Below are positions 258 through 41,450 of a DNA stretch of 41,541 bases, one piece after another. The notes below the pieces were generated by a model that saw only the letters and a program-made list of their open reading frames with translations, did not search any database and was not told the DNA's origin. Source of the DNA: Opitutia bacterium (lineage in GTDB: Bacteria > Verrucomicrobiota > Verrucomicrobiia > Opitutales > Opitutaceae); the NCBI GenBank assembly GCA_947472765.1, contig CANJCM010000038.1, positions 1 through 41,541 on the forward strand, in the 5' to 3' direction. Position 1 is the first letter of the stretch, and each line of letters starts with the position of its first letter. The translations under genes and the position numbers were made by a program.

Positions 258-769
258 CTTTGGCGCCAAATGCTGAGAGGAGACTGGACTTTGAGGGGCA
301 GTATTTTTTGGAGCCTGGAGTCGTTGAAAAGATGACATGCCGGGATTCGGGATATTCCCCCGCGACCCGGGGATTCTCGACCGTTGATTACGTCGGGTCG
401 TGGGCCGGGTGACTCACGCCAAGACGTGAAGTCGCGAAGGCCAAACCCCGGCTCCGACCGCTCCTGTCCCTCCGCGTCTCCGCGTGAGGGGATCGATGGT
501 GAGCCTGAAACCAGGAAGCCAGGAATCGGTCGCTCGAGCCTCAGCGGAGATTCTTCACCGCTTCGCGTAAAGCCGTCCCGCTGCTCACGCAGCGGGCTAC
601 AAAGCCAGCGCGCCCAATCTTCGCGGCCCTTCGCGCCCTTCGCGGTTTCGATCACATCTCCGGAAAACCCGTTGCCCGCGGCGATGTCGGCGTTACGGTC
701 ACCACCCGGGCGTCCCCTCGCCCCTCCCGCGCCGGCCCCGGCGCTGGCGTTAATCAATCCCCTTTCCCC
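258..769. other. Intergenic stretch with degenerate repeats, no gene seen
   Basis: Open frames on both strands here have no recognisable product. The stretch holds degenerate copies of the 8-base-period unit seen elsewhere (around 405-440, 465-485 and 618-650), a motif reading GAAACCAGGAAGCCAGGAAT near 508-527 that recurs near 18172 and, inverted, near 41487, and half of an R1 palindrome pair at 556-600. Confidence 0.5.
556..600 (-). repeat. R1 palindrome, half copy
   Basis: The hairpin is at 577-596 (stem CCCGCTGC / GCAGCGGG, loop TCAC on the plus strand) followed by CTAC, which is GTAG on the minus strand. The 20 bases before it match the spacer of the complete 76-bp copies, but the partner hairpin is missing. 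Confidence 0.8.
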
Positions 770-1507
770 ATGAAATTCCCGTCGCTTCGCGCTGCCTTGT
801 TCGCCGTCGGTTCCCTCCTCTGCCCGCTGGCGGTCACGGCCGCCGACCACGGCTTCGTCAGTCTCTTCAACGGCCGCGATCTCACCGGCTGGGATGGCAA
901 CCTCGACTTCTGGTCCGTCCGCGACGGCGTCATCACCGGGCAGACGACCCAGTCCCGTCTGCTCCTCTCGAACACGTTTCTCGTCTGGAAGGGCGGCGAC
1001 GTGAGGAACTTCGAGCTCCGCGCGAGCTTCCGACTCCAGGCCGACAACGACGACGGCTTCGCCAACTCCGGCATCCAATACCGCAGCAAGTTGATCGACG
1101 CGAAGAACTGGATCGTCGGCGGCTATCAGGCCGACATGGACTTCGCCGGCAAATACATCGGCATGCTCTACGAGGAGAAGGGCCGCGGCATCGTCATGCA
1201 GCCCGGCCAGCGCATCCTCATCCGCCCCGGCGTGAACGCCGAGGGTCGGACCGTCGTCGACGTCGCGGGAATCCCGACCACGCCCGAGAATGTCCTCGCC
1301 GCCTACCGCAAGGGCGAGTGGAACGACATCCGGATCGTCGCCGAGGGCAGCACGCTCCGGCACTATCTCAACGGCGTGATTGTCGCCAACGTGGTCGACG
1401 AGGACATGTCCCGCGGCGCCAAGAGCGGCCTGCTCGCGCTCCAGCTTCACGCCGGCCGCCCGATGACCGTCCAGTTCAAGAACGTACAGATGAAAAAGCT
1501 GCCCTGA
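770..1507 (+). CDS. Exported DUF1080 (3-keto-disaccharide hydrolase family) protein
   Basis: A 245-residue protein with a Sec signal peptide (about residues 1-24, ending AVTA/A) and one DUF1080 domain filling the rest. The domain opens with the typical FVSLFNGRDLTGWDG (about 29-43) and closes with a VQFKNVQMKKLP beta strand. DUF1080 has a concanavalin-like jelly-roll fold, and characterised members act on 3-keto-glycosides; the catalytic role of this copy is inferred from family only. The ATG at 770 is preceded by a C/T-rich leader with no Shine-Dalgarno sequence. The PVC-type cytochrome gene follows 11 bases after the stop, so the two probably form an operon acting outside the cytoplasmic membrane. 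Confidence 0.9.
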   Translation: MKFPSLRAALFAVGSLLCPLAVTAADHGFVSLFNGRDLTGWDGNLDFWSVRDGVITGQTTQSRLLLSNTFLVWKGGDVRNFELRASFRLQADNDDGFANSGIQYRSKLIDAKNWIVGGYQADMDFAGKYIGMLYEEKGRGIVMQPGQRILIRPGVNAEGRTVVDVAGIPTTPENVLAAYRKGEWNDIRIVAEGSTLRHYLNGVIVANVVDEDMSRGAKSGLLALQLHAGRPMTVQFKNVQMKKLP

Positions 1508-1518
1508 CCTTCCGCCCC

Positions 1519-4131
1519 ATGACCTTCGCCCCGCTCCCCTCCGTCCTCATCCACGTCAGCCGCTTCGCTCTGCTGCTCGCCCTTGCCCCTCTGGCCGGCG
1601 CGCAGTCGCCGGCCCCCGCCTTCCGCGGTCCGCCGCCGGCGCCCGAGGCGTCGACACTCCAGGTGCTCCCCGGCTTCAAGGCCGAGTTGCTCTACACCGT
1701 GCCGCGCGAGGATCAGGGTTCGTGGGTCAGCCTCGCCGTCGATCCCAAGGGCCGGCTCGTCGCCGGTGATCAATACGGCGGACTCTACCGCATCACCGTC
1801 CCGCCGATCGGCACCTCCACCGGCACCAAGGTGGAACTGCTCACGAACGAAATCGGCGGCGCGCACGGGCTGCTCTTCGCCTTCGACAGCCTCTACGTGA
1901 TGGTCAACGAGCGGACGGAACGCGGGCTCTACCGGCTGCGCGACACCGACGGCGACGACAAATTCGACGAGATCAAGCTGCTGCGGAAGATGAACGGCAC
2001 CGGCGAGCACGGCACGCACGCGCTCGTCCTCAGCCCCGACGGCAAATCGATCACCTTCGCCAACGGCAACCACACCGAACTGCCCGAGCACTGGGAGCGT
2101 TCGCGGCCGGTCGCCTGGGGCGAGGATCATCTGCTGCCGCGGATGTGGGATGCCCGCGGTCACGCCAAGGACAAATACGCCCCCGGCGGCTACATCGGCC
2201 GGACCGATCCCGACGGCAAGGCCGTGGAGATCGTGACGATCGGTTTCCGCAATCACTTCGACATCGCTTACGATCAGAACGGCGAGCTGTTCACCTACGA
2301 CTCCGACATGGAATGGGATCAGGGTTCGCCCTGGTATCTGCCGACGCGGATCGTCCATGCCGTCGCGGGCGGTGACTTCGGCTGGCGCAGCGGTGCGGGT
2401 CGCTGGCCGGACTACTACGCGGACAGCCTGCCCCCGGCGCTCGATGTCGGTCCCGGTTCGCCGACCGGAATCACGTTCGGCACGAGCGCGAAATTTCCCG
2501 CGAAGTACCAGCGAGCACTCTTCGCGTCGGACTGGACCTACGGGACGATGTACGCGATGCACCTCGTGCCGGAGGGATCCACTTTCCGCGCGGTGAAGGA
2601 GGAGTTCATCGCCGGCAAGCCGCTCCCGCTGACCGACCTCGTCATCAACCCCCACGACGGCGCGATGTATTTCGCCGTCGGCGGCCGGCGCACGCAGTCA
2701 GCGCTCTATCGCGTCACCTACGTCGGCAACGAGAGCACCGCCCCCGCGAAACTTCCGCCCCCGACGCCCGGCGTCGAACTCCGGCGCTCACTCGAAGCCC
2801 TGCAGAACGAAGGCACGGGACCGGAGGCGATCGACAAGGCGTGGCCGCACCTCGCGAGTCCGGATCGCTTCATTCGTTTCGCGGCCCGCGTCGCCATCGA
2901 ACGCCAGCCCGCCGCCCAGTGGGCCGACCGCGCGCTCGCCGAACTGCTGCCGCAGGCCTCGATCGAGGCGCTGATCGCCCTCGCCCGCGTCGGCGACAAA
3001 TCCTACCAGCCGCGGATCATCGAGGCGCTCAGCCGGCTCGACTTCGCCCGTCAGCCGGCGGAACTGCGCCAGCCGCTGCTCCGCGCCTGGCAGCTCGCGT
3101 TCACGCGCCTCGGCCGCCCTTCGCCGGAAGTGTGCGCCGGACTCGCCGCGAAATTCGATCCGCTGTTCCCGCACGCGGATCCCTTGGTGAATCGCGAGCT
3201 CGTCTCGCTGCTCATCTATCTCGGCTCGCGCACCGTCGTGGCCAAGACTGTCCCGCTGCTCACGGTCGCCGAGAAACCCGTCGAGGAGTGGGCCACGCCC
3301 TCCCTGCTCGCCCGCAACGACCGCTACGCCGCCGCCGTCACCGGCGCTTCGACGAGCCGGCCCGATCGGCAGCAAATCGCCTACGCCTACGCGCTCCGCA
3401 ATGCCACCACCGGTTGGACGCCCGAGCTGCACCGCAACTATTTCGCGTGGTTCCCCCGCACGCAGGGCTGGCGTGGCGGCGCGAGTTTCCCGGGCTTCAT
3501 GAAGAACATCCGCACCGAGGCGCTCGCCCAGACGGTCACCGATCCGGCGGAGCGTACCGCCCTCGAAGCCAGTTCGCAGATTCCGCCGCAGATGGGACTC
3601 GCCACCAGCGCGACCGCCAAGGGACCGGGGCGGAACTACACGCTGGCCGAAGCCACGACGCTCGTCGGCGCGAAGCCCACGGGACGGAATTATGCCCAGG
3701 GTCGGGCGATGTTCAGTGCGGCGGCCTGCACGGCTTGCCACCGGTTCAACAACGAAGGCATCGGCCTCGGCCCCGACATCAGCGGTGCCGGCAGCCGTTA
3801 CAGCGTTCGCGATCTGCTCGAGAACATCATCTCGCCGTCCGCCGTGATCAGCGACCAGTACGCCAGCGAGCAGGTGGAGAAGAACGACGGCAGCACGGTC
3901 GTCGGTCGCGTGATTGCGCAGGAGAACAACTCGCTGCTCCTGATGACGAATCCGTTCCTGCCCGACGACCTGACCCGCGTGATGCTGGTCGATCTGAAAA
4001 CCCGGAAACCGTTTCCGACGTCGATGATGCCGCCGGGGCTGATCAATTCGCTCAACGCCGAGGAACTGAAGGACCTCGTCGCCTACATCCTCAGCGGCGG
4101 GAATGCGAACGATGCGATGTTTCGCCGTTGA
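1519..4131 (+). CDS. Exported PVC-type c-heme protein with N-terminal beta-propeller
   Basis: An 870-residue protein. Residues 1-28 form a signal peptide (ending LAGAQ). About 40-430 resembles the glucose/sorbosone dehydrogenase-like propeller common in Planctomycetes and Verrucomicrobia (GxLVAGDQYGGLYRI, HGLLFAFDSLYVM, GFRNHFDIAYDQNGELFTYDSDMEWD). About 440-700 is helical and HEAT-like. The C-terminus is a cytochrome c domain: C737-T-A-C740-H741 binds heme covalently and Met836 or Met837 in SMMPPG is the likely distal ligand. This matches the PVC-type heme-binding CxxCH domain. The open frame extends upstream, but the ATG at 1519 gives the signal peptide and follows the DUF1080 stop by 11 bases. 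Probable role: periplasmic sugar oxidation coupled to electron transfer (inferred). Confidence 0.9.
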   Translation: MTFAPLPSVLIHVSRFALLLALAPLAGAQSPAPAFRGPPPAPEASTLQVLPGFKAELLYTVPREDQGSWVSLAVDPKGRLVAGDQYGGLYRITVPPIGTSTGTKVELLTNEIGGAHGLLFAFDSLYVMVNERTERGLYRLRDTDGDDKFDEIKLLRKMNGTGEHGTHALVLSPDGKSITFANGNHTELPEHWERSRPVAWGEDHLLPRMWDARGHAKDKYAPGGYIGRTDPDGKAVEIVTIGFRNHFDIAYDQNGELFTYDSDMEWDQGSPWYLPTRIVHAVAGGDFGWRSGAGRWPDYYADSLPPALDVGPGSPTGITFGTSAKFPAKYQRALFASDWTYGTMYAMHLVPEGSTFRAVKEEFIAGKPLPLTDLVINPHDGAMYFAVGGRRTQSALYRVTYVGNESTAPAKLPPPTPGVELRRSLEALQNEGTGPEAIDKAWPHLASPDRFIRFAARVAIERQPAAQWADRALAELLPQASIEALIALARVGDKSYQPRIIEALSRLDFARQPAELRQPLLRAWQLAFTRLGRPSPEVCAGLAAKFDPLFPHADPLVNRELVSLLIYLGSRTVVAKTVPLLTVAEKPVEEWATPSLLARNDRYAAAVTGASTSRPDRQQIAYAYALRNATTGWTPELHRNYFAWFPRTQGWRGGASFPGFMKNIRTEALAQTVTDPAERTALEASSQIPPQMGLATSATAKGPGRNYTLAEATTLVGAKPTGRNYAQGRAMFSAAACTACHRFNNEGIGLGPDISGAGSRYSVRDLLENIISPSAVISDQYASEQVEKNDGSTVVGRVIAQENNSLLLMTNPFLPDDLTRVMLVDLKTRKPFPTSMMPPGLINSLNAEELKDLVAYILSGGNANDAMFRR

Positions 4132-4165
4132 GGAGAACGCAGACGGCGGGAAGCAATGATTTTTC

Positions 4166-4184
4166 GGTGCGCCCAAGGCGCACC
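4166..4184. repeat. Triloop hairpin
   Basis: A perfect 8-bp stem GGTGCGCC / GGCGCACC with loop CAA lies between the convergent cytochrome and kdsB genes. It has no T run on its 3' side in either direction, so I do not call it a terminator. An R1 element abuts it. Confidence 0.6.
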
Positions 4185-4328
4185 TATTGAGACTCGTCTA
4201 TCAGCCTGGCAGCACGCTTCGAATCCCTGCCCTCACGGGCAGGGCCACGTTTCAGTCGTGGCCCGCTGCGTGAGCAGCGGGAGGATTGTCCCGCCGATGT
4301 GCGTCAGTCTATTGGGCGAGCCTCAATA
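4185..4328. repeat. R1b element, 144 bp with imperfect terminal inverted repeats
   Basis: The ends read TATTGAGACTCGTC and, inverted, TATTGAGGCTCGCC. Inside are two hairpins with their GTGG heads facing each other: 4225-4248 (stem CCCTGCCC / GGGCAGGG) and 4258-4281 (stem CCCGCTGC / GCAGCGGG). Their loops TCAC and GTGA are complementary. A second copy lies inverted at 34285-34427 with the same 57-bp core. Confidence 0.8.
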
Positions 4329-5587: not shown

Positions 5588-5649
5588 GTAGGGCCGGTGT
5601 TCACCGCCGGGCCTCTTCTTCACGCTTTTCGCGCCGCCTTCGCGGCTAC
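5588..5649. repeat. R3 palindrome pair (second half degenerate)
   Basis: GTAG at 5588 is followed by a hairpin to 5613 (arms GGCCGGTG and CACCGCCGGGCC). An inverted partner ending in CTAC at 5646-5649 is shortened. Confidence 0.7.
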
Positions 5650-5658: not shown

Positions 5659-5683
5659 GTAGGGGCGCGCCTCGTGCGCGCCC
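5659..5683 (+). repeat. R4 palindrome, single
   Basis: GTAG, then stem GGGCGCGC / GCGCGCCC with loop CTCGT. The flank after it (ATACTTCAATTCAAT near 5700) recurs inverted beside the copy at 11836. Confidence 0.85.
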
Positions 5684-6518: not shown

Positions 6519-6522
6519 GGGG

Positions 6523-6555
6523 GATTTTCGATTTTGGATTCTCGATTTGCGATTA
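6523..6555 (-). repeat. A-rich 7-base array upstream of tatD
   Basis: On the minus strand the stretch reads as degenerate heptamers of the type AAAATCG / AGAATCC. It lies directly before the tatD start in the same orientation as the arrays before five other genes. Confidence 0.6.
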
Positions 6556-6586
6556 ACCAGAGCGAGTCAGATTCCGTCAGACCAAT

Positions 6587-6657
6587 GGAGGGACGGTGCC
6601 TCCACCGTCCATGCATGCGAATCGGCTCGAACTGGCGGGTGAGGGCACCCGCCCTCC
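6587..6657. repeat. R2 palindrome pair, 71 bp
   Basis: GGAG, then stem GGACGGTG / CACCGTCC with loop CCTC; then an inverted partner with stem GGCGGGTG / CACCCGCC and loop AGGG, closed by CTCC. Outer ends match as ATGGAG and CTCCA. Confidence 0.9.
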
Positions 6658-8237: not shown

Positions 8238-8340
8238 GGCCCGGCGGTGAACGCCGGCCCTACATTCGAACCAAGAATTCGCTTCCGACCGCGGTGCAGT
8301 CCGTTTCCGGATCCTGTAGGGCCGGCGCTCGTCGCCGCGC
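8238..8340. repeat. R3 palindromes in inward arrangement
   Basis: An inverted hairpin ending in CTAC (8238-8263) is followed about 50 bases later by GTAG plus hairpin (8316-8340). The heads face each other, the reverse of most R3 pairs. Confidence 0.75.
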
Positions 8341-8376
8341 CGCTTCTCACGACAACGGTCTCTGCCATGCCCGGAC

Positions 8377-34215: not shown

Positions 34216-34216
34216 T

Positions 34217-34262
34217 TGGATTTTCGATGACGATGTCGCTTCGCTCGGTACTCGATTTTGGA
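34217..34262. repeat. Copy of the block at 25349-25390 with 7-base motifs
   Basis: Two GATTTT motifs flank GATGTCGCTTCGCTCGGTAC. The same arrangement lies before hrpA; here it follows the Ig-protein stop codon. Confidence 0.8.
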
Positions 34263-34284
34263 TTTCGGGCACGAAATCCGATTC

Positions 34285-34427
34285 TATTTAGGCTCGCCCA
34301 ATGGACTGACGCCTGTTGGCAGGCCAATCCTCCCGCTGCTCACGCAGCGGGCCACGACTGAAACGTGGCCCTGCCCGTGAGGGCAGGGATTCGAAACGTA
34401 AGGTCAGTCTGATCGACGAGTCCCAAT
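34285..34427. repeat. R1b element, 143 bp, inverted copy of 4185-4328
   Basis: The ends read TATTTAGGCTCGCCC and, inverted, ATTGGGACTCGTCGATC. The 57-bp core 34332-34388 is stem CCCGCTGC / GCAGCGGG with loop TCAC and CCAC, then GTGG and stem CCCTGCCC / GGGCAGGG with loop GTGA. Confidence 0.8.
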
Positions 34428-34437
34428 TTTTTCCCAT

Positions 34438-34508
34438 GGAGGGCGGGTGCCCTCACCCGCCGGTTCAAGACGGTTCGCACGCATTGACGGTGGGGGCACC
34501 GTCCCTCC
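34438..34508. repeat. R2 palindrome pair, 71 bp
   Basis: GGAG, stem GGCGGGTG / CACCCGCC, loop CCCT; then arms TGACGGTG / CACCGTCC (one mismatch at the base), loop GGGG, CTCC. Confidence 0.9.
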
Positions 34509-34539
34509 ATGGTATGAATCGTCAAAGGCAGTCGGATCG

Positions 34540-34597
34540 AGGCGTGGACGAGCCACGCCCTAAACGCATTTCGCAGGGGCGCGCCTCGAGCGCGCCC
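34540..34597. repeat. R4 palindrome pair, inward heads
   Basis: Arms GGCGTGG / CCACGCC with loop ACGAG, head decayed to CTAA; then GCAG, stem GGGCGCGC / GCGCGCCC, loop CTCGA. Confidence 0.85.
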
Positions 34598-34612
34598 TCC
34601 GCGTCTGCCCTT

Positions 34613-34683
34613 GGAGGGCGGGTGCCCTCACCCGCCGTTTCAAGACGGCTCGCCTGCATGGACGGTGGGGGCACCGTCCCTCC
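34613..34683. repeat. R2 palindrome pair, 71 bp
   Basis: GGAG, stem GGCGGGTG / CACCCGCC, loop CCCT; then stem GGACGGTG / CACCGTCC, loop GGGG, CTCC. With the R1b, R2 and R4 copies just before it, this fills the 598-base gap 34216-34813, in which I see no gene. Confidence 0.92.
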
Positions 34684-34813
34684 ATGGAACGAATCCTCAC
34701 GGGGGTACCCGTGAGGGCGTGGCGTATAGCAATGGGATGCCTCCCAAAACTTCTTGCCTGATTCCGCGCGTGGCCGTGGCATGGGGCGTCCCCCCCTCAT
34801 CCCCCCCAACCCT

Positions 34814-35428
34814 ATGAATAAGTTACGTTCCACCTTCGTCATCGTCACCGCGCTCGCCGCCTCCGCGTTCGTGCAGGCCGCCGATATGTCCGAGCCTCAG
34901 TTCGTCTCCATCTTCAACGGCAAAGACCTCACCGGCTGGAAGGCGAATGGCGATGCTTCCATCTGGACCGTCGAGAACGGCATCATCGTCGGCAAGAACA
35001 ACGCCAAGCGCGAAGGCGGCACGCTCGCGACGACGAAGGAATACAAGAATTTCGTCATCGAGCTCGACGTGAAGTACATGCCCCCGGCGGACAGCGGAAT
35101 CATGATGCGCAAGCCGGGCCTCCAGATGCAGATTGGCACCTCGCACAGCCTGAAGACCGAGCTCACCGGCTCGTTCTATCTCGGGGCGCTGAGCTACACC
35201 GATGACTCCACCGCCAAGGACACCTGGAAGGTCTTCAAGCCGGGCGATTGGAACACCATCCGCCTGCAGGCGCGTGGCGCGATTTTCACGGTCTGGGTCA
35301 ACGGCCAGAAGGTTCACACCTACGCCGACGACAAACATCCGGACGCCGGCCCGGTCAGCGTGCAGGTGCACAACGACGAGCAGTCGAAGATCGAGTTCCG
35401 CAACATCAAGATTGCGGAGCTGAAGTAA
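34814..35428 (+). CDS. Exported DUF1080 (3-keto-disaccharide hydrolase family) protein
   Basis: A 204-residue protein with a signal peptide (MNKLRSTFVIVTALAASAFVQA, about 1-22) and a single DUF1080 domain: FVSIFNGKDLTGWKANGDASIWTVENGIIVG at the start, DSGIMMRKPGLQMQIG in the middle and GPVSVQVHNDEQSKIEFRNIKIAELK at the end. It is the shorter, more canonical of the two DUF1080 proteins and only distantly like the one at 770. Likely periplasmic, acting on 3-keto-glycosides (family inference). The ATG at 34814 follows a CCCCCCCAACCCT leader. The gene is monocistronic and closed by a strong terminator. Confidence 0.92.
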   Translation: MNKLRSTFVIVTALAASAFVQAADMSEPQFVSIFNGKDLTGWKANGDASIWTVENGIIVGKNNAKREGGTLATTKEYKNFVIELDVKYMPPADSGIMMRKPGLQMQIGTSHSLKTELTGSFYLGALSYTDDSTAKDTWKVFKPGDWNTIRLQARGAIFTVWVNGQKVHTYADDKHPDAGPVSVQVHNDEQSKIEFRNIKIAELK

Positions 35429-35503
35429 GGCTTTCCCGATCCGCAGCCGGAAGGCTGACGGCAGACGGCCGATGGCGGACGCCAGAGGACGTTAGCCGGA
35501 AAC

Positions 35504-35536
35504 AAGGCCCGACGAATTTATTCGTCGGGCCTTTTT
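35504..35536 (+). terminator. Rho-independent terminator
   Basis: A perfect 14-bp stem AAGGCCCGACGAAT / ATTCGTCGGGCCTT with a 2-base loop, followed by more T, 75 bases after the DUF1080 stop. The strongest intrinsic terminator in the window. Confidence 0.93.
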
Positions 35537-35553
35537 GTTGAACGAATTTCCCT

Positions 35554-35636
35554 GTAGGGCCGGCGTTCACCGCCGGGCCGCTTCTTCACGATTTTCATTC
35601 CGCCTTTCGCGGCACGCCGACAAGCGGCGGCCCTAC
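35554..35636. repeat. R3 palindrome pair, 83 bp
   Basis: GTAG with arms GGCCGGCG and CGCCGGGCC (loop TTCAC-type), then an inverted partner ending CTAC, starting 18 bases after the terminator. Confidence 0.9.
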
Positions 35637-35747
35637 ATTCGAGCTCCGAATGCATTTGAACAGGAGCCGATCCGAGCACGATCCGAGTGGATCGGCTTTT
35701 GCGCCTCCTGCACCTCTTCGCGCCAATTGAATTGGTCAAGCTAGGCG

Positions 35748-35762
35748 GGGCGCGAAGCGCCC
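35748..35762 (-). terminator. Triloop hairpin after the amidohydrolase stop codon
   Basis: On the minus strand, stem GGGCGC / GCGCCC with loop TTC begins five bases after the TGA. It has the GC-NNN-GC apex of the other stop-codon hairpins but no T run, so the terminator call is tentative. Confidence 0.5.
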
Positions 35763-35767
35763 GGCCC

Positions 35768-37507
35768 TCACTTCACTTCATGCACGATCTTCCCGCCGAC
35801 GACCGTCAGCCGGGAACGGATGTCCTTAATCTTGTCCTCCGGGCAGGCGAGGTAGTCGGCGGTGAGGATCGCCACGTCGGCGTATTTGCCGACTTCGATC
35901 GATCCAACCTTCTTCTCGTCGAAGCTGAACCAGGCCGCGTTGATCGTCACCATCCGCAGCGCATCCTCACGGGACACGCGTTCGCTCGGCCCGAAAACCT
36001 GGCCGCCTTCCGTCTTGCGCGTGATTGCCGTCTGCATCGCAAGGAAGGGATTGTAGGGATTCAGCGACGTGTTCGGATCGAGGCCCTGCATGTGGTCGGC
36101 GTTGATCGCGACCTTCACGCCGGCTTTCTGCCAGGTCTGCAGGCCGATGAAGTGCTCGAGCCGCTTCGGGCCCAGCGCCTCGGCGAGGGCGTCGCCATCC
36201 TTGTAATACCACATCGGCTGGATATCGACCGCGACGCCGAGCCGGGCGGCCTTCGCCGCCGTCTCGGGATTCGGAAAATAGCCATGGATGAGATTGTAAC
36301 GGCGCGGCGCCACCGGGCTGTCGGCGTTCGATGCCTCGATCGCCTCGAGCACGGCATCGACCCCGGCGTCGCCCGTGACGTGCGATGACATCTGCCAGCC
36401 AAGACGATGGCCGGTCCGGATGATATTCTTCAACTCCTCGCGGCTGATGCGAAGGTCGCCGCGGTAGTTCGGATCGGAGATGCCGTAGAGTGAAAACGAC
36501 TGCGGGCCGTACGGCTCGCGCATGTGGGCAGTGGCGTAGAGAATGCCTCCGTCCACGCCGAGTTTGAGCGGCCCCATCTTCACCCAGTCGTCGCCGTCGC
36601 CGGTCTTGTAAGGGATCGCTTTGATCACGCGCTCGGTGCCCGCGACGGTGCCGTCGGTGTTGAGCATGATCGTGACAGTCACGCGGGTCGTCAGCCGCCC
36701 TTGCGCCTTGAGCTTGTTGTAGGTTTCGAAGGCGGCGACGTTCGCGCCGCGCTCCCCGATGCTCGTGATCCCGATCGCGTTGTAGTTGTGCAGGAGCTGC
36801 ACGAGCGTGTCGTGGTACTTCTCGTCGGTGACACCGCGCGCCGGCATGAACTTGGTCACGAGTCCGCTCGCATTCTCAATCGTGCCAGTCGGCTGGCCGT
36901 CCGACCCGAAGTGGATTTTTCCGCCCGCGGGTGCCTGCGTGGACTGGTTGATGTTGGTAACCTTCAACGCGGCGGAATTCAGGATCTGGATGATCTTGTT
37001 CGCGTACTGCCAGGTGAAGACCGCGGGATTGTTGGGGGCGGCCTCGTCGAGATCGGCCTTGTTCGGCAGGCGGCGTTCCTTGATGCGCGTGACGTCGGTT
37101 CGCGGAAGTTGAATCCAGCCACCAGGACCTGCCTCACGAGCGCGGGCGCGGACCCAGTCCTTGATTTCCCCGATGGAGTAGAGCTGCTGGTAAGGCTGCT
37201 GCGCATCGCCGCGCGCGGCTTGAGTGGCGTGAAGGTGGCCCTCGACGATGCCGGGGATGACCGTGCGCCCGCCGGCGTCGACCGTCCGGGTGGCGGTCCC
37301 TGCCAGCTTGCGGATCTCGGCGTCGGAGCCGACCGCCACGAACTTGTCACCGCGAATCGCGACCGCCGACGCGCGGCTGAAGCTGGCGTCCACCGTGAGG
37401 ACCTTGCCATTGACGATGATGAGATCAGCGGGTGCCTCGGCGGCGCGCGCCACAAGGGCGAGTGCAAGCAGGCCGGCGACGCGAAGAAGAGGAGTGCGAA
37501 GGTTCAT
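35768..37507 (-). CDS. Exported amidohydrolase family 3 protein
   Basis: A 579-residue metal-dependent hydrolase with a signal peptide (MNLRTPLLRVAGLLALALVARA, about 1-22). It shows the amidohydrolase landmarks: DLIIVNGKVLTVD composite strand, IPGIVEGHLHAT with His91 and His93 as metal ligands, SSHVTGDAGVDAVLEAIE, YNLIHGYF, INADHM and VGSIEVGKYADVAIL. This is the YtcJ/NfdA-like branch (N-substituted formamide deformylase and relatives); substrate unknown. The proposed start gives the signal peptide; the open frame upstream is repeat DNA. Its export is consistent with the many periplasmic hydrolases of this neighbourhood. Confidence 0.9.
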   Translation of the reverse strand: MNLRTPLLRVAGLLALALVARAAEAPADLIIVNGKVLTVDASFSRASAVAIRGDKFVAVGSDAEIRKLAGTATRTVDAGGRTVIPGIVEGHLHATQAARGDAQQPYQQLYSIGEIKDWVRARAREAGPGGWIQLPRTDVTRIKERRLPNKADLDEAAPNNPAVFTWQYANKIIQILNSAALKVTNINQSTQAPAGGKIHFGSDGQPTGTIENASGLVTKFMPARGVTDEKYHDTLVQLLHNYNAIGITSIGERGANVAAFETYNKLKAQGRLTTRVTVTIMLNTDGTVAGTERVIKAIPYKTGDGDDWVKMGPLKLGVDGGILYATAHMREPYGPQSFSLYGISDPNYRGDLRISREELKNIIRTGHRLGWQMSSHVTGDAGVDAVLEAIEASNADSPVAPRRYNLIHGYFPNPETAAKAARLGVAVDIQPMWYYKDGDALAEALGPKRLEHFIGLQTWQKAGVKVAINADHMQGLDPNTSLNPYNPFLAMQTAITRKTEGGQVFGPSERVSREDALRMVTINAAWFSFDEKKVGSIEVGKYADVAILTADYLACPEDKIKDIRSRLTVVGGKIVHEVK

Positions 37508-37624
37508 GACGATTTCAGGGTATGAGCGGGAGCGCGAAAGAGGCGGCGATCCTTGCCGGTCGCGAGTGCGACAAACAAGGCATAAACTGGAGGGCGGAGG
37601 CCGGAAGCCGGATGCGGATCGAAT

Positions 37625-37650
37625 GTAGGGCCGGCGTTCACCGCCGGGCC
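37625..37650 (+). repeat. R3 palindrome, single
   Basis: GTAG with arms GGCCGGCG and CGCCGGGCC; no inverted partner within 100 bases. Confidence 0.85.
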
Positions 37651-37698
37651 GCTTCGTGACGGTTTTCGTTCCGGCTCGGACATCGATCTCAAACCGGT

Positions 37699-37727
37699 TT
37701 AACCACGAAGACACAGAGTTCACGAAG
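37699..37727 (-). repeat. 28-base unit with 8-base period
   Basis: Inverted: TTAA then CCACGAAG, ACACAGAG, and TTCACGAAG with one extra base. Confidence 0.8.
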
Positions 37728-37771
37728 CTTTGGGCTCAACCCTGACCAATCGAACCGGACCCAAGGCTTTT

Positions 37772-37800
37772 TTACCACCGAGACACCGAGGCACCGAGAC
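37772..37800 (-). repeat. 28-base unit with 8-base period
   Basis: Inverted CCGAG variant, with TTAC in place of TTAA; it forms one end of the block repeated at 30566-30692. Confidence 0.8.
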
Positions 37801-37810
37801 GAGCCATCCA

Positions 37811-37867
37811 GCGCGCACGAGGGCTGCCAGAGGGAAGCCACGTGATGAAGGCAGCCCTCGTGCGCGC
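37811..37867. repeat. Long palindrome, perfect 18-bp arms
   Basis: Arms GCGCGCACGAGGGCTGCC (37811-37828) and its exact reverse complement (37850-37867) around a 21-base loop containing CCACGTG. A related, imperfect copy lies inverted at 30593-30649. Confidence 0.92.
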
Positions 37868-37933
37868 GGGTCGCACCGCTCAGACGTTGTCCTCGCGTCT
37901 GTGGGCGGCCCCACTTCGGCCGTGCTCCGTCCT

Positions 37934-38014
37934 GTAGGGCCGCCGCTTGCGGCGGGTCGCAAAGGCGGAACGAATCTCGTGAAGAAGCGGCCCGTCGACG
38001 AGCGACGGCCCTAC
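37934..38014. repeat. R3 palindrome pair, 81 bp
   Basis: GTAG with arms GGCCGCCG and CGGCGGGTC (loop CTTG), then an inverted partner with arms CCCGTCG / CGACGG ending CTAC. The two stems differ at a paired position. Confidence 0.9.
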
Positions 38015-38129
38015 ATTCCAAGGCCTTGGTTTCTGTGAAAGCCGATTGAGCCGGAGATTGCTCTGCTTAAATCTGGCCGCCTCTGCGGATAGCACCGACC
38101 GGGGTTTGCGGTTCGAGTCCGAGGCTTGG

Positions 38130-38157
38130 CTCGGTGACTCCGTGTCTCGGTGGTTAA
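38130..38157 (+). repeat. 28-base unit with 8-base period
   Basis: CTCGGTGA, CTCCGTGT, CTCGGTGG, then TTAA. Confidence 0.85.
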
Positions 38158-38188
38158 TCCGCCTGGCGGCTCGGGATCGATGCCATCT

Positions 38189-38216
38189 CTTCGTGACTTC
38201 GCGTCTTCGTGGTTAA
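38189..38216 (+). repeat. 28-base unit with 8-base period
   Basis: CTTCGTGA, CTTCGCGT, CTTCGTGG, then TTAA. Confidence 0.88.
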
Positions 38217-38294
38217 ACGGCTCGGGATTCAATCCCCCAATCGGTTTGAACACAGAGCCAACCCGAGGCGATCCGAGGTCGAACTCCATACCGT

Positions 38295-38323
38295 TTAACC
38301 ACGAAGACACAGAGTTCACAAAG
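38295..38323 (-). repeat. 28-base unit with 8-base period
   Basis: Inverted, same variant as 37699-37727. Confidence 0.8.
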
Positions 38324-38325
38324 TA

Positions 38326-38423
38326 CTTGGATCCCGAAGTTGGCTTCGTAGCCCGCTGCGTGAGCAGCGGGACTGCTTTAGGCGCAGCGATGGAGAAATC
38401 CCTGTCCTCACGGACAGGGCCAC
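38326..38423. repeat. R1 element with one terminal repeat and a 76-bp palindrome pair
   Basis: The left end CTTGGATCCCGAAGTT (two differences from the complete copy) is followed at 38348 by GTAG, stem CCCGCTGC / GCAGCGGG, loop GTGA, and then stem CCCTGTCC / GGACAGGG, loop TCAC, CCAC. It has the orientation of the element at 25432; the right end is lost. Confidence 0.9.
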
Positions 38424-38453
38424 GCGGATGGTTCGTCTGGGACGATGCCTTTG

Positions 38454-38480
38454 CTTCGTGACTTCGTGTCTTCGTGGTAA
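38454..38480 (+). repeat. 28-base unit with 8-base period
   Basis: CTTCGTGA, CTTCGTGT, CTTCGTGG, then TAA (one T missing). Confidence 0.85.
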
Positions 38481-38524
38481 AACGGCTCGGGAAGCTTGGC
38501 GCCTTGGCATCTTTGCGCTTCGTC

Positions 38525-38560
38525 CGAAATCGAAAATCGAGAATCGAAAATCCAAAATTC
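38525..38560 (+). repeat. A-rich 7-base array upstream of the DUF6807 gene
   Basis: Heptamers of the type GAAAATC and GAGAATC end 82 bases before the ATG at 38643, in the common orientation. Confidence 0.7.
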
Positions 38561-38642
38561 ACTAAGGGGTTGCCGGAAATCCTCGCTCCGCCTTAGTACC
38601 CACCCTCCCCGACCGTCATCCCAACTCAACCGAATCGTTCCC

Positions 38643-39752
38643 ATGCTCCGTCTCCCCTTTCCGCGCACATCCGTTTCGTTTCGGGCTGGTCTCCGCCGTT
38701 CGACCGCCGTCATTGGTCTCTTTGCCGCTTCGCTCGCCACCGTCCAGGCGGCCGATTGGAAAGTCACCAAAGGAGCCAATGATGTTGGCCCCGGCGAGAA
38801 TGTGACCGTCAGCGTCGACGGAAAAGTGGTCGCCCGGCTGATCTACGGCGAGGGCCAGCAGAAGCCGTTCGTCGCCATCTACGACGAACAAGGCCGCGCC
38901 ATCACCAACCCGGGCGTCGGCAAGGACGGCAAGACCGTCGGCATCGAGCCGCACCAGCGCGGCATTTTCATCGGCTGGAAATCGATCGAGTCCGACCTCG
39001 GTCAGCTCGATCCCGTCAATTCCCAAGGCACGAAGTACGTCGGCAAACAGGCGGACACTTGGTCCATGATGAATGGCACCACCCAGCAGCTCGTGGAAGT
39101 TGAGAAGATGGCGACCAACGACGACTCCGCGAGCATCGTCGCCCGTGTGGAATGGCGGGCCGGCACCAAGGATGCTTCCGGCAGCAACCTGCTGCTCACC
39201 GAGACGCGCCGGATCCGCGTCTACAAGCCGGCGAGGGCGCTGGCCCAGGTTGATGTGACGTCCGACCTCCTCCCCGCCCGCGATCTTCGTCTCGGGGCCG
39301 ACGTCCAGCACGCGGGTGTTCACATGCGCGTCGATGCCAGCGTCTACGATCACATTGCCGAGACTTCCTATCTCTATGCCCCCGCGAACGCCGAGAAGGC
39401 GGGCAAGCCCTACTACAACGGCGGCCTGCCCGGCGCGACCGGCTCGATCAAGGGCGACAACCTGAAGTGGGGCGAGTTTCTGTTCCCGCTGCACGACCGC
39501 TGGTACAGCGTCACGCAGATGAACTCGATCATGAACCCGGTGGAGGAGTTCTCGACGCGCGAATACGGCCGGTTCGGATTCTTCTTCAAACAGGATCTCA
39601 AGAAGGATGAACCGCTCCGGATCTCCTATCGCTTCCTCGTGAAAGTAGCCGAGACGCCCGCGGAAGCCCCGAAACGTTCCGCCGCGCAGGCCACCAAGGT
39701 TCGCCAGGAACTCGAGTCCGCGTACGTGAAGTTCGTGCACGAAGTCCGGTGA
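38643..39752 (+). CDS. Exported DUF6807 (PmoA-like) family protein
   Basis: A 369-residue protein with a long signal peptide (about 1-36, ending ATVQA/A). The body matches the family annotated as methane oxygenase PmoA / DUF6807, a name that does not reflect methane oxidation: VARLIYGEGQQKPFVAIYDEQGRAITNP, GIEPHQRGIFIGWKSIES, DTWSMMNGTTQQLV, VDASVYDH and LHDRWYSVTQMNSIMNP are typical. Members occur next to DUF1080 and sugar-isomerase genes in Bacteroidetes and the PVC group and probably serve carbohydrate use; no activity is established. The ATG at 38643 has a TCGTTCCC leader. The sugar isomerase gene follows on the same strand but 486 bases away across repeats. Its stop lies inside a hairpin. 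Confidence 0.85.
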   Translation: MLRLPFPRTSVSFRAGLRRSTAVIGLFAASLATVQAADWKVTKGANDVGPGENVTVSVDGKVVARLIYGEGQQKPFVAIYDEQGRAITNPGVGKDGKTVGIEPHQRGIFIGWKSIESDLGQLDPVNSQGTKYVGKQADTWSMMNGTTQQLVEVEKMATNDDSASIVARVEWRAGTKDASGSNLLLTETRRIRVYKPARALAQVDVTSDLLPARDLRLGADVQHAGVHMRVDASVYDHIAETSYLYAPANAEKAGKPYYNGGLPGATGSIKGDNLKWGEFLFPLHDRWYSVTQMNSIMNPVEEFSTREYGRFGFFFKQDLKKDEPLRISYRFLVKVAETPAEAPKRSAAQATKVRQELESAYVKFVHEVR

Positions 39753-39771
39753 TTCCGCTTCGCGGAATCAC
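39749..39771 (+). terminator. Triloop hairpin containing the DUF6807 stop codon
   Basis: A perfect 10-bp stem GTGATTCCGC / GCGGAATCAC, loop TTC. The TGA at 39750-39752 is part of the stem. No T run follows; CTGAGGGG does. Confidence 0.65.
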
Positions 39772-39814
39772 TGAGGGGCCGTCGGGATTCGGGAGGGCAT
39801 GAGGCGGTTCCCCT

Positions 39815-39925
39815 GTACGGCCGGCGTTCACCGCCGGGCCGCTTCGCGACGCCGCGACCCTGAGGACGGTCATCAGCACGCCTGTCCGAACGGTCCTGCG
39901 GCCCGCCGGCAAGCGGCGGCCCTAC
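39815..39925. repeat. R3 palindrome pair, 111 bp
   Basis: The first head has mutated to GTAC, the arms GGCCGGCG / CGCCGGGCC remain, and the inverted partner ends in CTAC. Confidence 0.85.
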
Positions 39926-39985
39926 AAACGAGCCCCCTCCGACCCTCCGGCTTCCGCCCTCCGTCATCCGATTTCCCAATCCGGT

Positions 39986-40014
39986 TTGACCACAGAGACA
40001 CAGAGTTCACGGAG
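39986..40014 (-). repeat. 28-base unit with 8-base period (degenerate)
   Basis: Inverted ACAGAG variant beginning TTGA. Confidence 0.7.
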
Positions 40015-40061
40015 ACAATCCTCCGGAACTCGGTTGATTCCGGGGTTTGCAGTGGCTCGGC

Positions 40062-40137
40062 GTGGCCCTGCCCGTGAGGGCAGGGATTCCTACAACGCTT
40101 CGCTTTAACCTGTCCCGCTGCTCACGCAGCGGGCTAC
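40062..40137. repeat. R1 palindrome pair, 76 bp
   Basis: GTGG, stem CCCTGCCC / GGGCAGGG, loop GTGA; then stem CCCGCTGC / GCAGCGGG, loop TCAC, CTAC. The spacer differs from other copies but the total length is the same. Confidence 0.92.
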
Positions 40138-40147
40138 GAATCCCAGG

Positions 40148-40175
40148 CTTCGTGACTTCGTGTCTTCGTGGTTAA
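40148..40175 (+). repeat. 28-base unit with 8-base period
   Basis: The cleanest copy: CTTCGTGA, CTTCGTGT, CTTCGTGG, TTAA. Confidence 0.92.
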
Positions 40176-40238
40176 AACTCCGGCCGCTGGAATTCCGTAT
40201 TGCCAGTCAAACGACCGACTTCAACGTCGCTCCTGCCT

Positions 40239-41126
40239 ATGAAATTCCCCACGTCCTTTACCATCATCTCCGACGAAATCTCGCAGGACTTGCCTGACGT
40301 TCGCCGGTTCGTGAAAAACTTCGGCTTCACCGGCTTCGAGCTGCGGAGCATGGCAGGTCGGGCGTTCAAGGATCTGACCCCAGCCGACATCGCGGACGTC
40401 GCCGCGCTCGCCAAGGCCGAGGGCCTGAAGATTCACGGCTGCGCATCGCCGGTCTTCAAATGCGACATCGACAAGCCGGACGAAATCCGCGCGCACGTCG
40501 AAATCTTCAAGCGCAGCATCGAGACCGCCAAGGCGCTGAACTGCGACCTCATCCGGGTCTTCACCTTCCTGCGTCAGCCGACCGCACCGACGGCCGCGAC
40601 GATCGACAAGATCGCCACGCACCTGCGCGAGTTGATCGATCTGGCTTCGGCGGCGGGCATCCGCGTCGGCGTCGAGAACGAGAGCTCCTGCATCATCGGC
40701 ACCGGCGAGGAAGTGCTCCAACTGATCCCGAAGCTGCCGGCCAAGGGCTGGGGCATCATCTGGGATCCGTGCAACATCCTCTTCGTGCCCGGCTCGAATT
40801 TCCCGCCGGCGAAACTCTACGCGCAACTCGCGCCGCACATCATCCACATTCACGCGAAGGACGCAGTTCGCCGTCCCGGCTCGGGCAAGGATTATGTCGC
40901 CGACCCGGTTCCGGTGGGCGTGGGCGAAGTAAACTGGCGCGCGCACTTCAAGGAAATCGAGCAGAGCGGCTACCGCGGCCTGATCTCCCTGGAGACGCAC
41001 TGGCGCGTCGTGCAGATCGACGAGAAGCTCCTTCACCTCCCGGCCGGTTACAATTTCTCGAAGGGCGCCGAGGAAGCCTCGGTGGCCTGCCTGCGGAACA
41101 TCCAGGCCCTCTGCTCGTTGCCCTGA
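40239..41126 (+). CDS. Sugar phosphate isomerase/epimerase (xylose isomerase-like TIM barrel)
   Basis: A 295-residue cytosolic protein of the AP endonuclease 2 / xylose isomerase-like superfamily. Landmarks are FTIISDEISQDLPDVRRFVKNFGFTGFELR, CDLIRVFTF, GIRVGVENESSCI with the metal-binding Glu, GWGIIWDPCNIL, PHIIHIHAKDA and GYRGLISLETHWR with a second Glu. Such enzymes isomerise or epimerise sugars and related compounds, and several act on 3-keto-sugars; the substrate here is unknown. It lies near the exported DUF1080 and DUF6807 genes, which supports a role in breakdown of oxidised sugars (inference). The ATG at 40239 has no Shine-Dalgarno sequence. A hairpin begins at the last base of its TGA. 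Confidence 0.88.
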   Translation: MKFPTSFTIISDEISQDLPDVRRFVKNFGFTGFELRSMAGRAFKDLTPADIADVAALAKAEGLKIHGCASPVFKCDIDKPDEIRAHVEIFKRSIETAKALNCDLIRVFTFLRQPTAPTAATIDKIATHLRELIDLASAAGIRVGVENESSCIIGTGEEVLQLIPKLPAKGWGIIWDPCNILFVPGSNFPPAKLYAQLAPHIIHIHAKDAVRRPGSGKDYVADPVPVGVGEVNWRAHFKEIEQSGYRGLISLETHWRVVQIDEKLLHLPAGYNFSKGAEEASVACLRNIQALCSLP

Positions 41127-41150
41127 GGAATTCCGCGGTGCGGAATTCCT
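41126..41150 (+). terminator. Triloop hairpin starting in the isomerase stop codon
   Basis: A perfect 11-bp stem AGGAATTCCGC / GCGGAATTCCT with loop GGT; the first A is the last base of TGA. No T run follows. Confidence 0.65.
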
Positions 41151-41168
41151 GAGGACGGAGGGCGGGGT

Positions 41169-41210
41169 GGAGTTTGGAGTTTGGAGTTTGGAGTTCGGCG
41201 TTTGGCGTTC
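41169..41210 (+). repeat. 7-base tandem array
   Basis: Six heptamers: GGAGTTT three times, then GGAGTTC, GGCGTTT and GGCGTTC. After this the window holds only palindromes and no gene to its end. Confidence 0.92.
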
Positions 41211-41230
41211 GGCGGAGAGGCGGTTCGATT

Positions 41231-41312
41231 GTAGGGCCGGCGCTCGTCGCCGGGCCGCTTCGTGACGCCTTTGATTCCCAGTTTGCGGCCCGTCGGCGAG
41301 CGACGGCCCTAC
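41231..41312. repeat. R3 palindrome pair, 82 bp
   Basis: GTAG, arms GGCCGGCG / CGCCGGGCC; inverted partner with arms CCCGTCGG / CGACGG ending CTAC. Confidence 0.9.
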
Positions 41313-41368
41313 AATCGAACCGGCGCAACGGATTCCTTCGATCCGTCATCACGAATTTCGCGTTCCAT

Positions 41369-41450
41369 GGAGGGCCGGTGCCCCCACCGGCCACGGATTT
41401 CGTATCTAAATTCTCCACGGCCTATTGGCGGGTGAGGGCACCCGCCCTCC
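41369..41450. repeat. R2 palindrome pair, 82 bp
   Basis: GGAG, stem GGCCGGTG / CACCGGCC, loop CCCC; then stem GGCGGGTG / CACCCGCC, loop AGGG, CTCC. Confidence 0.92.

Follow-up and report, generated by a model that had tools for sequence, protein, structure and literature searches.

The stretch of DNA analysed here is a contig of 41,541 nucleotides ("the window"; contig C38) from the 4.97-Mb genome of an Opitutia bacterium (G000), and almost all of its intergenic regions contain short hairpins. These hairpins very probably represent five co-resident families of repetitive extragenic palindromes (REPs), which we call R1 to R5, and each family would be acted on by a REP-associated tyrosine transposase specific to it (RAYT, also known as TnpA_REP; RAYTs have an HUH motif and a Y1 tyrosine). 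Most of the hairpins are in inverted pairs. (Such pairs are known as REP doublet-forming hairpins, REPINs, or as bacterial interspersed mosaic elements, BIMEs.) The system is real and of an ordinary kind, it is unusually dense in the window, and we can name a partner enzyme for all five families, although for R1 and R4 the enzyme was found in a sister species (G004) and not here. An earlier note on this DNA had proposed the REP/BIME and RAYT interpretation, and the dispersed copies and family-matched RAYTs that we describe support it. What we say of papers cited by PMC accession holds for the portions of their text that were available.

We scanned the window with a consensus for each family. 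Allowing up to 5 mismatches, we found 75 non-overlapping hairpins (22 of R1, 15 of R2, 21 of R3, 13 of R4, and 4 of R5), as compared to 1 when the window was read backwards; with up to 4 mismatches, there were 73 hairpins and 0 in the reversed window. The earlier note had counted about 78 hairpins (15, 20, 26, 13, and 4). Its total is close to ours, its per-family numbers differ somewhat, and judged by copy number its five families are the same ones: its R1 is our R2, its R2 is our R3, its R3 is our R1, and R4 and R5 (13 and 4 copies) correspond directly. Our consensus scan omits copies with short loops, such as an R1-like hairpin at about 37933-37957, which may explain part of the gap between our 22 copies of R1 and the 26 counted earlier. 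We also ran a generic scan for a head, a stem, and a loop, which found 78 sites in the window and 14-26 sites in each of ten Markov-resampled windows. Because the generic scan is only about 4-fold above chance, the family signal rests on the consensus sequences and not on the generic form.

The consensus of R1 is GTAG-GGCCGGCG-CTCGT-CGCCGGGCC; that of R2 is GTAG/GTGG-CCCGCTGC or CCCTGTCC-GTGA; that of R3 is GGAG-GGCGGGTG-CCCT; that of R4 is GTAG-GGGCGCGC-CTCGT; and that of R5 is GTGG-CACGGGTC-TCCN. All of the families had been described as having a stem of about 8 bp and a loop of 4-5 bases. This is correct for the consensus copies of R2 through R5, which are perfect palindromes with a 4-nt head, an 8-bp stem, and a 4-5-nt loop, but not for R1, whose 8/9-nt stem has a single bulged base. 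The head of a REP has been defined as GT[A/G]G (PMC3686654; PMC6006769). The heads of R1 and R4 (mostly GTAG), R2 (GTGG and GTAG), and R5 (GTGG) agree with this definition, while R3 has the head GGAG in 56 of 58 copies from the window and from a sample of the genome (below). R3 behaves like a REP yet is outside the published definition, and so the earlier statement that GTAG and GGAG heads are both known features of REPs finds support in these papers for GTAG only. In the literature passages that contain GGAG along with GTAG and "REP-associated tyrosine", GGAG was inside strings such as GTGGGAG or GTAGGAG and was not a head.

Strict patterns for the five families matched 1,287 times in the 4.97-Mb genome (189 copies of R1, 443 of R2, 388 of R3, 148 of R4, and 119 of R5), while each of the five patterns had 0 matches when written backwards. 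The hairpins are thus not rare elsewhere in the genome, which the earlier note had proposed to check, and at 119-443 strict copies, each family fits the description of a REP as an extragenic palindrome of 20-40 nt with over 100 copies. The strict patterns had 56 matches in the window, or 1.35 per kb, versus 0.26 per kb for the genome. With a looser scan of twenty 20-kb stretches of this genome (400 kb; "the sample"), we found 153 hairpins, as compared to 3 in the reversed control. This corresponds to 0.38 per kb, versus 1.76 per kb in the window (about 4.6 times higher); the densest stretch had 1.15 per kb and one stretch had none. The window is therefore a local hot spot, and the earlier figure of two hairpins per kb is about right within the window but not genome-wide. 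The apparent families might instead have arisen from G+C-rich background and from the bias of our tools, as the generic scan does yield sites in resampled sequence, but this is refuted by the controls for the consensus scans (75 versus 1 and 73 versus 0 in the window; 153 versus 3 in the sample) and for the strict patterns (1,287 versus 0), and we give it practically no credence.

Three RAYT genes in this genome are flanked on both sides by a single family: by R3 on contig C32, by R5 on C37, and by R2 on C9 (L051, with three R2 hairpins upstream and two downstream). In the sister species G004, a RAYT on contig C94 (L075) has two R1-type hairpins before it and five after it, and a RAYT on C111 (L216) has three R4-type hairpins before it and two after it. 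R4-like hairpins flank a RAYT in another genome (G016) as well. The earlier note had recommended a search for Y1 HUH genes with the same heads and loops alongside, and had expected the transposases to lie elsewhere in the genome; both proved right for R2, R3, and R5, while for R1 and R4 the flanked RAYTs are in the sister species. PF01797 matched at 7 places in the genome and NF047646 (REP_Tyr_transpos; E ≤ 10) matched at 9 places, and in the latter search, each of the three REP-flanked RAYTs occurs at one place. We found no RAYT in the window with PF01797, with NF047646 (E ≤ 10), or with an in-house RAYT profile (E 1).

The RAYTs of R3 (99.5 bits), of R1 in G004 (82.0 bits), and of R4 in G004 (87.4 bits) exceed the 80-bit cut-off of NF047646, and the RAYT of R5 is under it (74.8 bits). 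The best match in PDB for the RAYTs of R3 and R5 is TnpA_REP from E. coli (4er8; E = 8.6e-9 and 4.8e-8, respectively), which the RAYT of R2 matches weakly (E = 0.078). All five RAYTs score higher against REP_Tyr_transpos than against transpos_IS200, where the latter was listed. Among the aligned RAYT loci described below, and judging by sequence only, the HUH motif is present in 140 of 143, with gaps in the other 3, and a tyrosine precedes xxxNP in 137 of the 144 rows, with gaps in the other 7. The motif after the tyrosine has been reported as NP(L/V)(R/K)xG (PMC2817692). The RAYT of R3 fits (NPVRAG), and those of R5 (NPPRAG), R1 and R4 (both NPYRAG), and R2 (NPERAD) depart from the motif in at least one position.

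The genome also encodes five long Y1 proteins (L001-L005, with frames of 307-371 amino acids, at C34:46478, C49:33619, C27:39743, C4:42794, and C141:425). Those on C34, C27, and C141 resemble each other at the start. We considered these proteins as partners for R1, R2, or R4 and rejected them because they lack repeated flanking hairpins; a lone copy of R4 precedes the C49 frame by about 330 nt, and another is about 0.8 kb away from the frame on C34.

We compared 57 genomes, including this one, and 41 of them have matches to NF047646. (A genus-mate, G003, has the most, with 33 matches of all kinds.) The patterns for R1 and R4 were searched for in all 57 genomes, and those for R2, R3, and R5 in this genome. 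R1 has 189 copies here, 33 in G004, and 28 in G016; R4 has 148 copies here, 45 in G004, and 15 in G007. Each family thus leaves a different set of 54 other genomes, with at most 5 copies for R1 and at most 3 for R4. As they are nearly absent from most of the genomes, R1 and R4 are not genus-wide.

A DNA search with positions 24000-41541 of the window identified the place that corresponds to the R1 RAYT of G004. Positions 2563-4271 of G004:C94 match window 35768-37476 at 83% identity, and positions 94-1195 match window 38670-39772 at 79%; the RAYT is between two genes that are orthologous to those bordering window 37477-38669. This region of the window has R1 hairpins (at 37625, about 37933, and 37989), and we found no trace of a RAYT within it: a tblastn search of the window with the R1 RAYT from G004 gave a best E value of 0.30 and the in-house profile had no match. 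We make no claim that the R1 pair at 37933-38014 is orthologous to the pairs beside the RAYT in G004, because this type of spacer, judged by eye, recurs at other R1 pairs in the window. As for the contig with the R4 RAYT (G004 C111), comparing it to about 0.5 of the 4.97 Mb of this genome gave a single match to a 46-nt repeat. We infer that the RAYTs of R1 and R4 were lost here, or that they fall in a gap in the assembly, and that their repeats remained.

The sister species also shows how intergenic regions have diverged. In aligned blocks, G004 is about 75-87% identical to the window. Window 25354-25665 (312 nt, with an R2 pair and R4 and R3 hairpins) corresponds to 82 nt without any five-family hairpin in G004; an R1 pair occupies the gap at 35429-35767, and the counterpart carries an R4 pair together with a decayed R3; and the G004 gap opposite window 28072-28727 contains three R1 hairpins. 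A block of 239 nt at window 27273-27511, which includes an R1 hairpin and an R3 pair, corresponds to 1 nt in G004:C485, and the local alignment places the flanks up to the edges.

The hairpins in the window are listed here by family. The rows rest on the consensus scan that allowed as many as 5 mismatches, and mismatch counts are given where stated.

577-600, minus strand: R2 hairpin, GTAG, single, 0 mismatches
4225-4281: R2 inverted pair, heads inside, 9-nt spacer, within a repeat of about 160 bp that has near-identical inverted ends (TATTGAGRCTCG)
10700-10775: R2 inverted pair, heads outside, 28-nt spacer
20648-20723: R2 inverted pair, heads outside
25454-25529: R2 inverted pair, heads outside; in G004, the orthologous gap (82 versus 312 nt) has no five-family hairpin
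34332-34388: R2 inverted pair, heads inside
38348-38423: R2 inverted pair, heads outside
40062-40137: R2 inverted pair, heads outside
5588-5613, plus strand: R1 hairpin, GTAG, one-base bulge
8238-8341: R1 inverted pair, heads inside
18397-18479: R1 inverted pair, heads outside
20563-20588, minus strand: R1 hairpin
26342-26451: R1 inverted pair, heads outside
27283-27308, minus strand: R1 hairpin, within the 239-nt block 27273-27511 (1 nt in G004)
28417-28442, minus strand: R1 hairpin
28566-28591, plus strand: R1 hairpin
30539-30564, plus strand: R1 hairpin, 3 mismatches
30717-30742, minus strand: R1 hairpin
33253-33278, minus strand: doubtful R1-like site, possibly due to chance, 5 mismatches, in a called gene, absent from the set with up to 4 mismatches
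35554-35636: R1 inverted pair, heads outside; in G004, the orthologous gap carries an R4 pair plus a decayed R3
37477-38669: intergenic region orthologous to the R1 RAYT site of G004:C94, same two flanking genes, no RAYT sequence
37625-37650, plus strand: R1 hairpin, within the intergenic region 37477-38669 (orthologous to the R1 RAYT locus of G004)
37933-38014: R1 pair (short-loop hairpin at about 37933-37957 and hairpin at 37989-38014), in the same region
39815-39925: R1 inverted pair, heads outside
41231-41312: R1 inverted pair, heads outside
6587-6657: R3 inverted pair, GGAG, heads outside
9442-9465, plus strand: R3 hairpin, GGAG
9600-9623, minus strand: R3 hairpin, decayed, 5 mismatches
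18255-18357: R3 inverted pair, heads inside, 55-nt spacer, within a repeat of about 210 bp
20736-20821: R3 inverted pair
25627-25650, minus strand: R3 hairpin
27387-27467: R3 inverted pair, also within block 27273-27511 (239 nt; 1 nt in G004)
28228-28330: R3 inverted pair, heads inside, 55-nt spacer
28447-28527: R3 inverted pair
34438-34508: R3 inverted pair
34613-34683: R3 inverted pair
41369-41450: R3 inverted pair
5659-5683, plus strand: R4 hairpin, GTAG
9499-9573: R4 inverted pair, heads inside
11836-11908: R4 inverted pair, heads inside
13875-13948: R4 inverted pair, heads inside
13995-14019, minus strand: R4 hairpin, decayed, 4 mismatches
17413-17479: R4 inverted pair, heads inside
25564-25588, plus strand: R4 hairpin
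34540-34597: R4 inverted pair, heads inside, left copy decayed
14593-14669: R5 inverted pair, GTGG, heads outside
22624-22683: R5 inverted pair inside a gene for an HrpA-like helicase (20843-25294, minus strand), at residues of about 870-890

We analysed pairing in the window and the sample together (226 hairpins), considering neighbours from the same family that are within 110 bp of each other. Of 84 such neighbours, 83 are inverted (49 with heads outside and 34 with heads inside) and 58 of the 226 hairpins are unpaired, so the earlier statement that most hairpins are in inverted pairs holds. The orientation of the pairs varies by family: heads are inside in 19 of 19 pairs of R4 and outside in 6 of 6 pairs of R5 and 15 of 16 pairs of R1, with 17 outside versus 4 inside for R2 and 11 versus 10 for R3. 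Pairs in which both hairpins have the same stem (homotypic pairs) are absent from R2 (0 of 22, versus 7.2 expected from the frequencies of the stems) and from R3 (0 of 21, versus 7.0 expected). There is 1 homotypic pair among 19 for R4 (4.6 expected) and 4 among 16 for R1 (8.2 expected). All 6 pairs of R5 are homotypic, which is not very informative because R5 stems hardly vary.

Sequence conservation around the pairs bears on whether the hairpins themselves are the mobile units. For R1 (7 copies) and R4 (4 copies), conservation falls to background at or near the edge of the hairpin. In contrast, the heads-inside pairs of R2 (5 copies) are conserved over about 160 bp, the ends of which are inverted and almost identical (TATTGAGRCTCG/CGAGTCTCAATA), those of R3 (9 copies) lie in a conserved repeat of about 210 bp, and the heads-outside pairs of R2 (13 copies) have weaker extended conservation with CTGGATTCCGAAGTT ends. 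Some copies of R2 and R3 may therefore have moved with larger repeats. More broadly, many of the copies could have been moved by another transposase within repeats that resemble miniature inverted-repeat transposable elements. This would explain conservation that continues far past the heads, but not the abrupt edges of R1 and R4, nor the RAYT genes that lie between matching REPs for R2, R3, and R5. We consider it rather unlikely and a partial explanation at best, perhaps for a subset of R2 and R3.

The location of the hairpins relative to genes raises another possibility. Using an in-house gene caller that is based on codon usage, we found that hairpins are present in 23 of the 27 called gaps in the window that are 60 bp or longer, which agrees with the earlier claim that they fill almost every intergenic region, and that 2 of 73 hairpins (the R5 pair at 22624-22683) are inside a called gene. 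This pair falls between the OB_NTP_bind and DUF3418 domains of the helicase, and G004 has an R5 pair at the orthologous place in its helicase gene. (In the linker of the helicase, the pair adjoins a 12-bp tandem repeat, GTGGCTCTGCAC; together these span window 22564-22683.) In the sample, 4 of 153 hairpin midpoints are within called genes, although 83% of the sequence is called as coding, and the density of hairpins is 6.12 per kb in convergent gaps, 1.94 in tandem gaps, and 0.68 in divergent gaps. Together with the strong stems, the preference for convergent over divergent gaps could mean that the hairpins are mainly RNA-level elements, such as terminators or stabilisers of the 3' ends of mRNAs, that are maintained by selection and whose multiplication was incidental. 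However, TTTT is found within 12 nt on either outer side of 10 of the 226 hairpins (4.4%), versus 5.8% for random intergenic places, and because T-runs are not enriched, we rejected terminators as the main explanation. Rfam elements were also rejected, as no family matched the window at the gathering score. Furthermore, selection on RNA does not account for five families that each have their own head, loop, and RAYT, for the near-absence of R1 and R4 from most of the 57 genomes, or for orthologous gaps that carry different families or none, and the bias in position also fits with simple purging of REPs from promoter regions. An RNA-level role as the main explanation is thus improbable, and we return to REPs that are mobilised by RAYTs.

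The GGAG head of R3 led us to consider heads across many RAYTs. We searched for repeated hairpins, with no head assumed, in the flanks of 172 RAYT/Y1 loci: 3 from this genome, 29 top PF01797 loci, 60 loci from its relatives (hand-picked among the NF047646 matches listed, mostly shorter frames), and 80 named loci (the best 80 of 240 relatives of R3's RAYT). Repeated flanking hairpins were found at 3 of 3, 37 of 60, and 42 of 80 of the loci from this genome, its relatives, and the named set, as compared to controls of 2 of 29 for the top PF01797 loci and, when the flanks of all loci were reversed, 11 of 172. The heads at the 84 positive loci are GTAG (36, including L075, which was labelled by hand), GGAG (23), GTGG (5), and other (20). 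At four loci from other Verrucomicrobia records (L162, L155, L170, and L184), the heads of the flanking hairpins read TAGC or AGCC; these are maybe GTAG or further types of heads.

The alignment contains 143 loci and 4er8 (144 rows) and leaves out 28 of the 29 top PF01797 loci and L070 (score below 85). After dropping 13 rows that were short, fragmentary, or divergent, including R2's RAYT (L051), we built a quick tree of 131 rows, 59 of which are labelled with a head. (RAYTs have reportedly been classified into five groups.) On this tree, the GGAG label requires 3 changes, with all three forced by well-supported branches, versus a mean of 17.3 for shuffled labels; all of the head labels together require 5 changes, versus 21.1. 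Thus, GGAG-headed loci are in at least three lineages of RAYTs, one of which extends across several phyla. This is a clade of 35 rows (support 100): the 17 labelled members are all GGAG, 15 have no repeated hairpin, and 3 were read as having other heads (L165, L175, and L192). The 17 are from one genome of the same genus and from records titled Verrucomicrobia and subgroups, Kiritimatiellae, Lentisphaerae, Phycisphaerae, Latescibacterota, Fermentibacteria, and Proteobacteria; as these are mostly metagenome-assembled genomes, errors in binning are possible. R3's RAYT is outside this clade. It groups with L113 (61% identical), whose flanking hairpins are identical to one type of R3, and it adjoins the GTAG-headed loci L064-L066. 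Two of these (L064 and L066) share the loop of R3, with GTAG-GCGGGGTG/CCCT as compared to GGAG-GGCGGGTG/CCCT for R3 and stems that are otherwise close. The 20 loci with other heads were left out of the head test, and because some are near R3's RAYT (L115, L117, L118, L119, and L122) or in the GGAG clade (the three above), the picture of heads in these parts of the tree is incomplete. The RAYTs of R1 and R4 are together in one clade (support 100) and that of R5 is separate.

Five residues of the E. coli enzyme are reported to contact the GTAG head (PMC6006769). We compared these residues across 58 labelled RAYTs (R2's RAYT, 4er8, L086, and L105 were left out). W94, Q95, D/E100, and R104 are conserved in all of them except for one Q95L, whereas residue 101 is histidine in 32 of 37 RAYTs with GTAG or GTGG heads and in 2 of 21 with GGAG heads. 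The exceptions are R3's RAYT and L113, which have H101 along with GGAG, and five GTAG RAYTs with R101. We rejected residue 101 as the cause of the choice of head and keep it as a lead, since there are 2-3 independent contrasts, with which a sign test is unable to reach 0.05; also, other columns of the alignment (such as 7, 14, 79, and 102) differ between the types of heads as much as 101 does or more. On balance, we see about an even chance that GGAG hairpins form a separate class of REPs with their own RAYT lineages, one of them multi-phylum, and that GTAG and GGAG have switched at least three times, with a change at residue 101 in the large clade.

Several observations weigh against five families that are each mobilised by their own RAYT. 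One concerns the RAYT of R2: at 40.9 bits (E = 1.8e-10), it is far below the 80-bit cut-off for NF047646, it lacks W94, which is one of the published contacts with the head, the REPs beside it have rarer stems (GCTCC and TGCGC) instead of the common ones, and its single-sequence structure prediction was unusable (pLDDT, a confidence score, of 34.6). A search of this assembly with NF047646 (E ≤ 10) turned up no RAYT for R1 or R4. At the R1 RAYT site, another genome (G010) is syntenic and has a 614-nt gap with neither a RAYT nor an R1 head, so either loss here or gain in G004 is possible; loss is weakly favoured because the 189 copies of R1 would need an earlier R1 RAYT. In the head-agnostic test, 23 of the 60 loci from relatives and 38 of the 80 named loci have no repeated flanking hairpin. 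The window itself does not show avoidance of divergent gaps, with 9.17 hairpins per kb in convergent gaps, 6.69 in tandem gaps, and 5.73 in divergent gaps (5 gaps each for divergent and convergent). Finally, mobility is a deduction, as no movement was observed. In comparison with G004, no insertion of a single REP with its target site could be read (three gaps were tried by global alignment and one was placed locally), and the sole gap that aligns up to its edges (239 versus 1 nt) contains three hairpins and other sequence and could be an insertion or a deletion.

Going by the enzymes from E. coli and Marinomonas, a RAYT would bind the single-stranded hairpin of a REP, use the 4-nt head as a guide, cut at a nearby dinucleotide via a 5'-phosphotyrosine, and re-join the ends. 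In this way, pairs of REPs would be copied or moved into new intergenic places, mostly downstream of genes. Each family would have spread while its RAYT was active; for R1 and R4, the RAYT would later have been lost here (or be in a gap in the assembly) while the repeats stayed. Two abundant families with no RAYT found here, and with their enzymes in a sister species, may represent the end of such a life cycle.

The head of a REP is thought to act like the guide sequence of an insertion sequence (IS), with GTAG specifying CT or CA and GTGG specifying CC (PMC8266576). If the guide rule from Marinomonas applies, then a GGAG head would keep cleavage at CT and would swap CA for CC. As to how a RAYT discriminates its own REP and how the position of cleavage follows from the tag, the 2021 study used three enzyme-REP pairs that all have GTAG (PMC8266576). 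The RAYTs described here provide a natural series of GTAG, GTGG, and GGAG pairs. Several of these share one genome, and there are close neighbours for which the tag is the main difference, so both matters could be tested by swapping heads between close relatives.

Some other features of the window are separate from R1-R5. Another dispersed intergenic repeat has runs like ACCACGAAGACACAGAGTTCACGAAG and ACCACCGAGACACCGAGGCACCGAG (D7, D14, and D17) between 14025 and 40184, with examples at 14025-14063, 30205-30256, 37676-37727, 38128-38225, and 40146-40184; its word ACCACGAAG occurs 11 times in the window, on both strands. Short heptad-like runs of GGATTTTGGATTTTCGATT (D20) are intergenic at 6522-6559, 13840-13877, 20390-20441, and 38530-38560, and similar words adjoin an orthologous gap in G004. 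Window 30070-34907 measures about 4.8 kb and includes called genes at 30959-32428 and 32629-34215, the latter with Ig-like domains; its counterpart in the syntenic contig G004:C94 is about 0.7 kb.

Because several GTAG-tagged families of REPs were described in Opitutus terrae in 2013 by Di Nocera and colleagues (PMC3733652), this kind of system was already known. As in O. terrae, there are several families in one verrucomicrobial genome, the heads include GTAG and GTGG (in O. terrae, GTGG is the majority in the GTAG-20 family), dimers have both orientations, and REPs occur within genes, including those for RNA helicases. Heterodimers and repeat-specific RAYT loci were described in that study for multi-family species generally; both types of dimers are known in other REP families, and the authors suggest that heterodimers escape enzymatic removal (PMC3733652). 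In contrast to R3, "GGAG" is never at the start of a word in the available text of that paper. R1-R5 may or may not be the same as its families GTAG-17, GTAG-19, and GTAG-20. Beyond the work on O. terrae, we identified a RAYT partner for each family, traced two of these to a sister species, and found synteny at one RAYT site. To specialists, two things would be new: a possible GGAG-tagged class that has RAYT lineages of its own, and an R1 enzyme that is missing here but has a sister-species counterpart at the place orthologous to window 37477-38669.

Other known systems are similar in part. The TnpA_REP/REP system of E. coli (group 2; 4er8; PMC8266576) has the same core of HUH and tyrosine, and the bulge in the R1 stem is like those of group 2 REPs, whereas the consensus REPs of R2-R5 are perfect palindromes and R3 has a GGAG head. 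The IS200/IS605 transposases (NF033573, PF01797) belong to the same HUH/Y1 fold family. Stenotrophomonas maltophilia and the fluorescent pseudomonads have several classes of RAYTs and REPs per group as well as REPINs, and Stenotrophomonas REPs have short perfect stems of 8-9 bp that are directly beside the head (PMC3686654). In contrast, as far as that text goes, the heads in those bacteria are GT[A/G]G only, while here R3 has GGAG, and all of the R2 and R3 pairs in the window and the sample are heterotypic.

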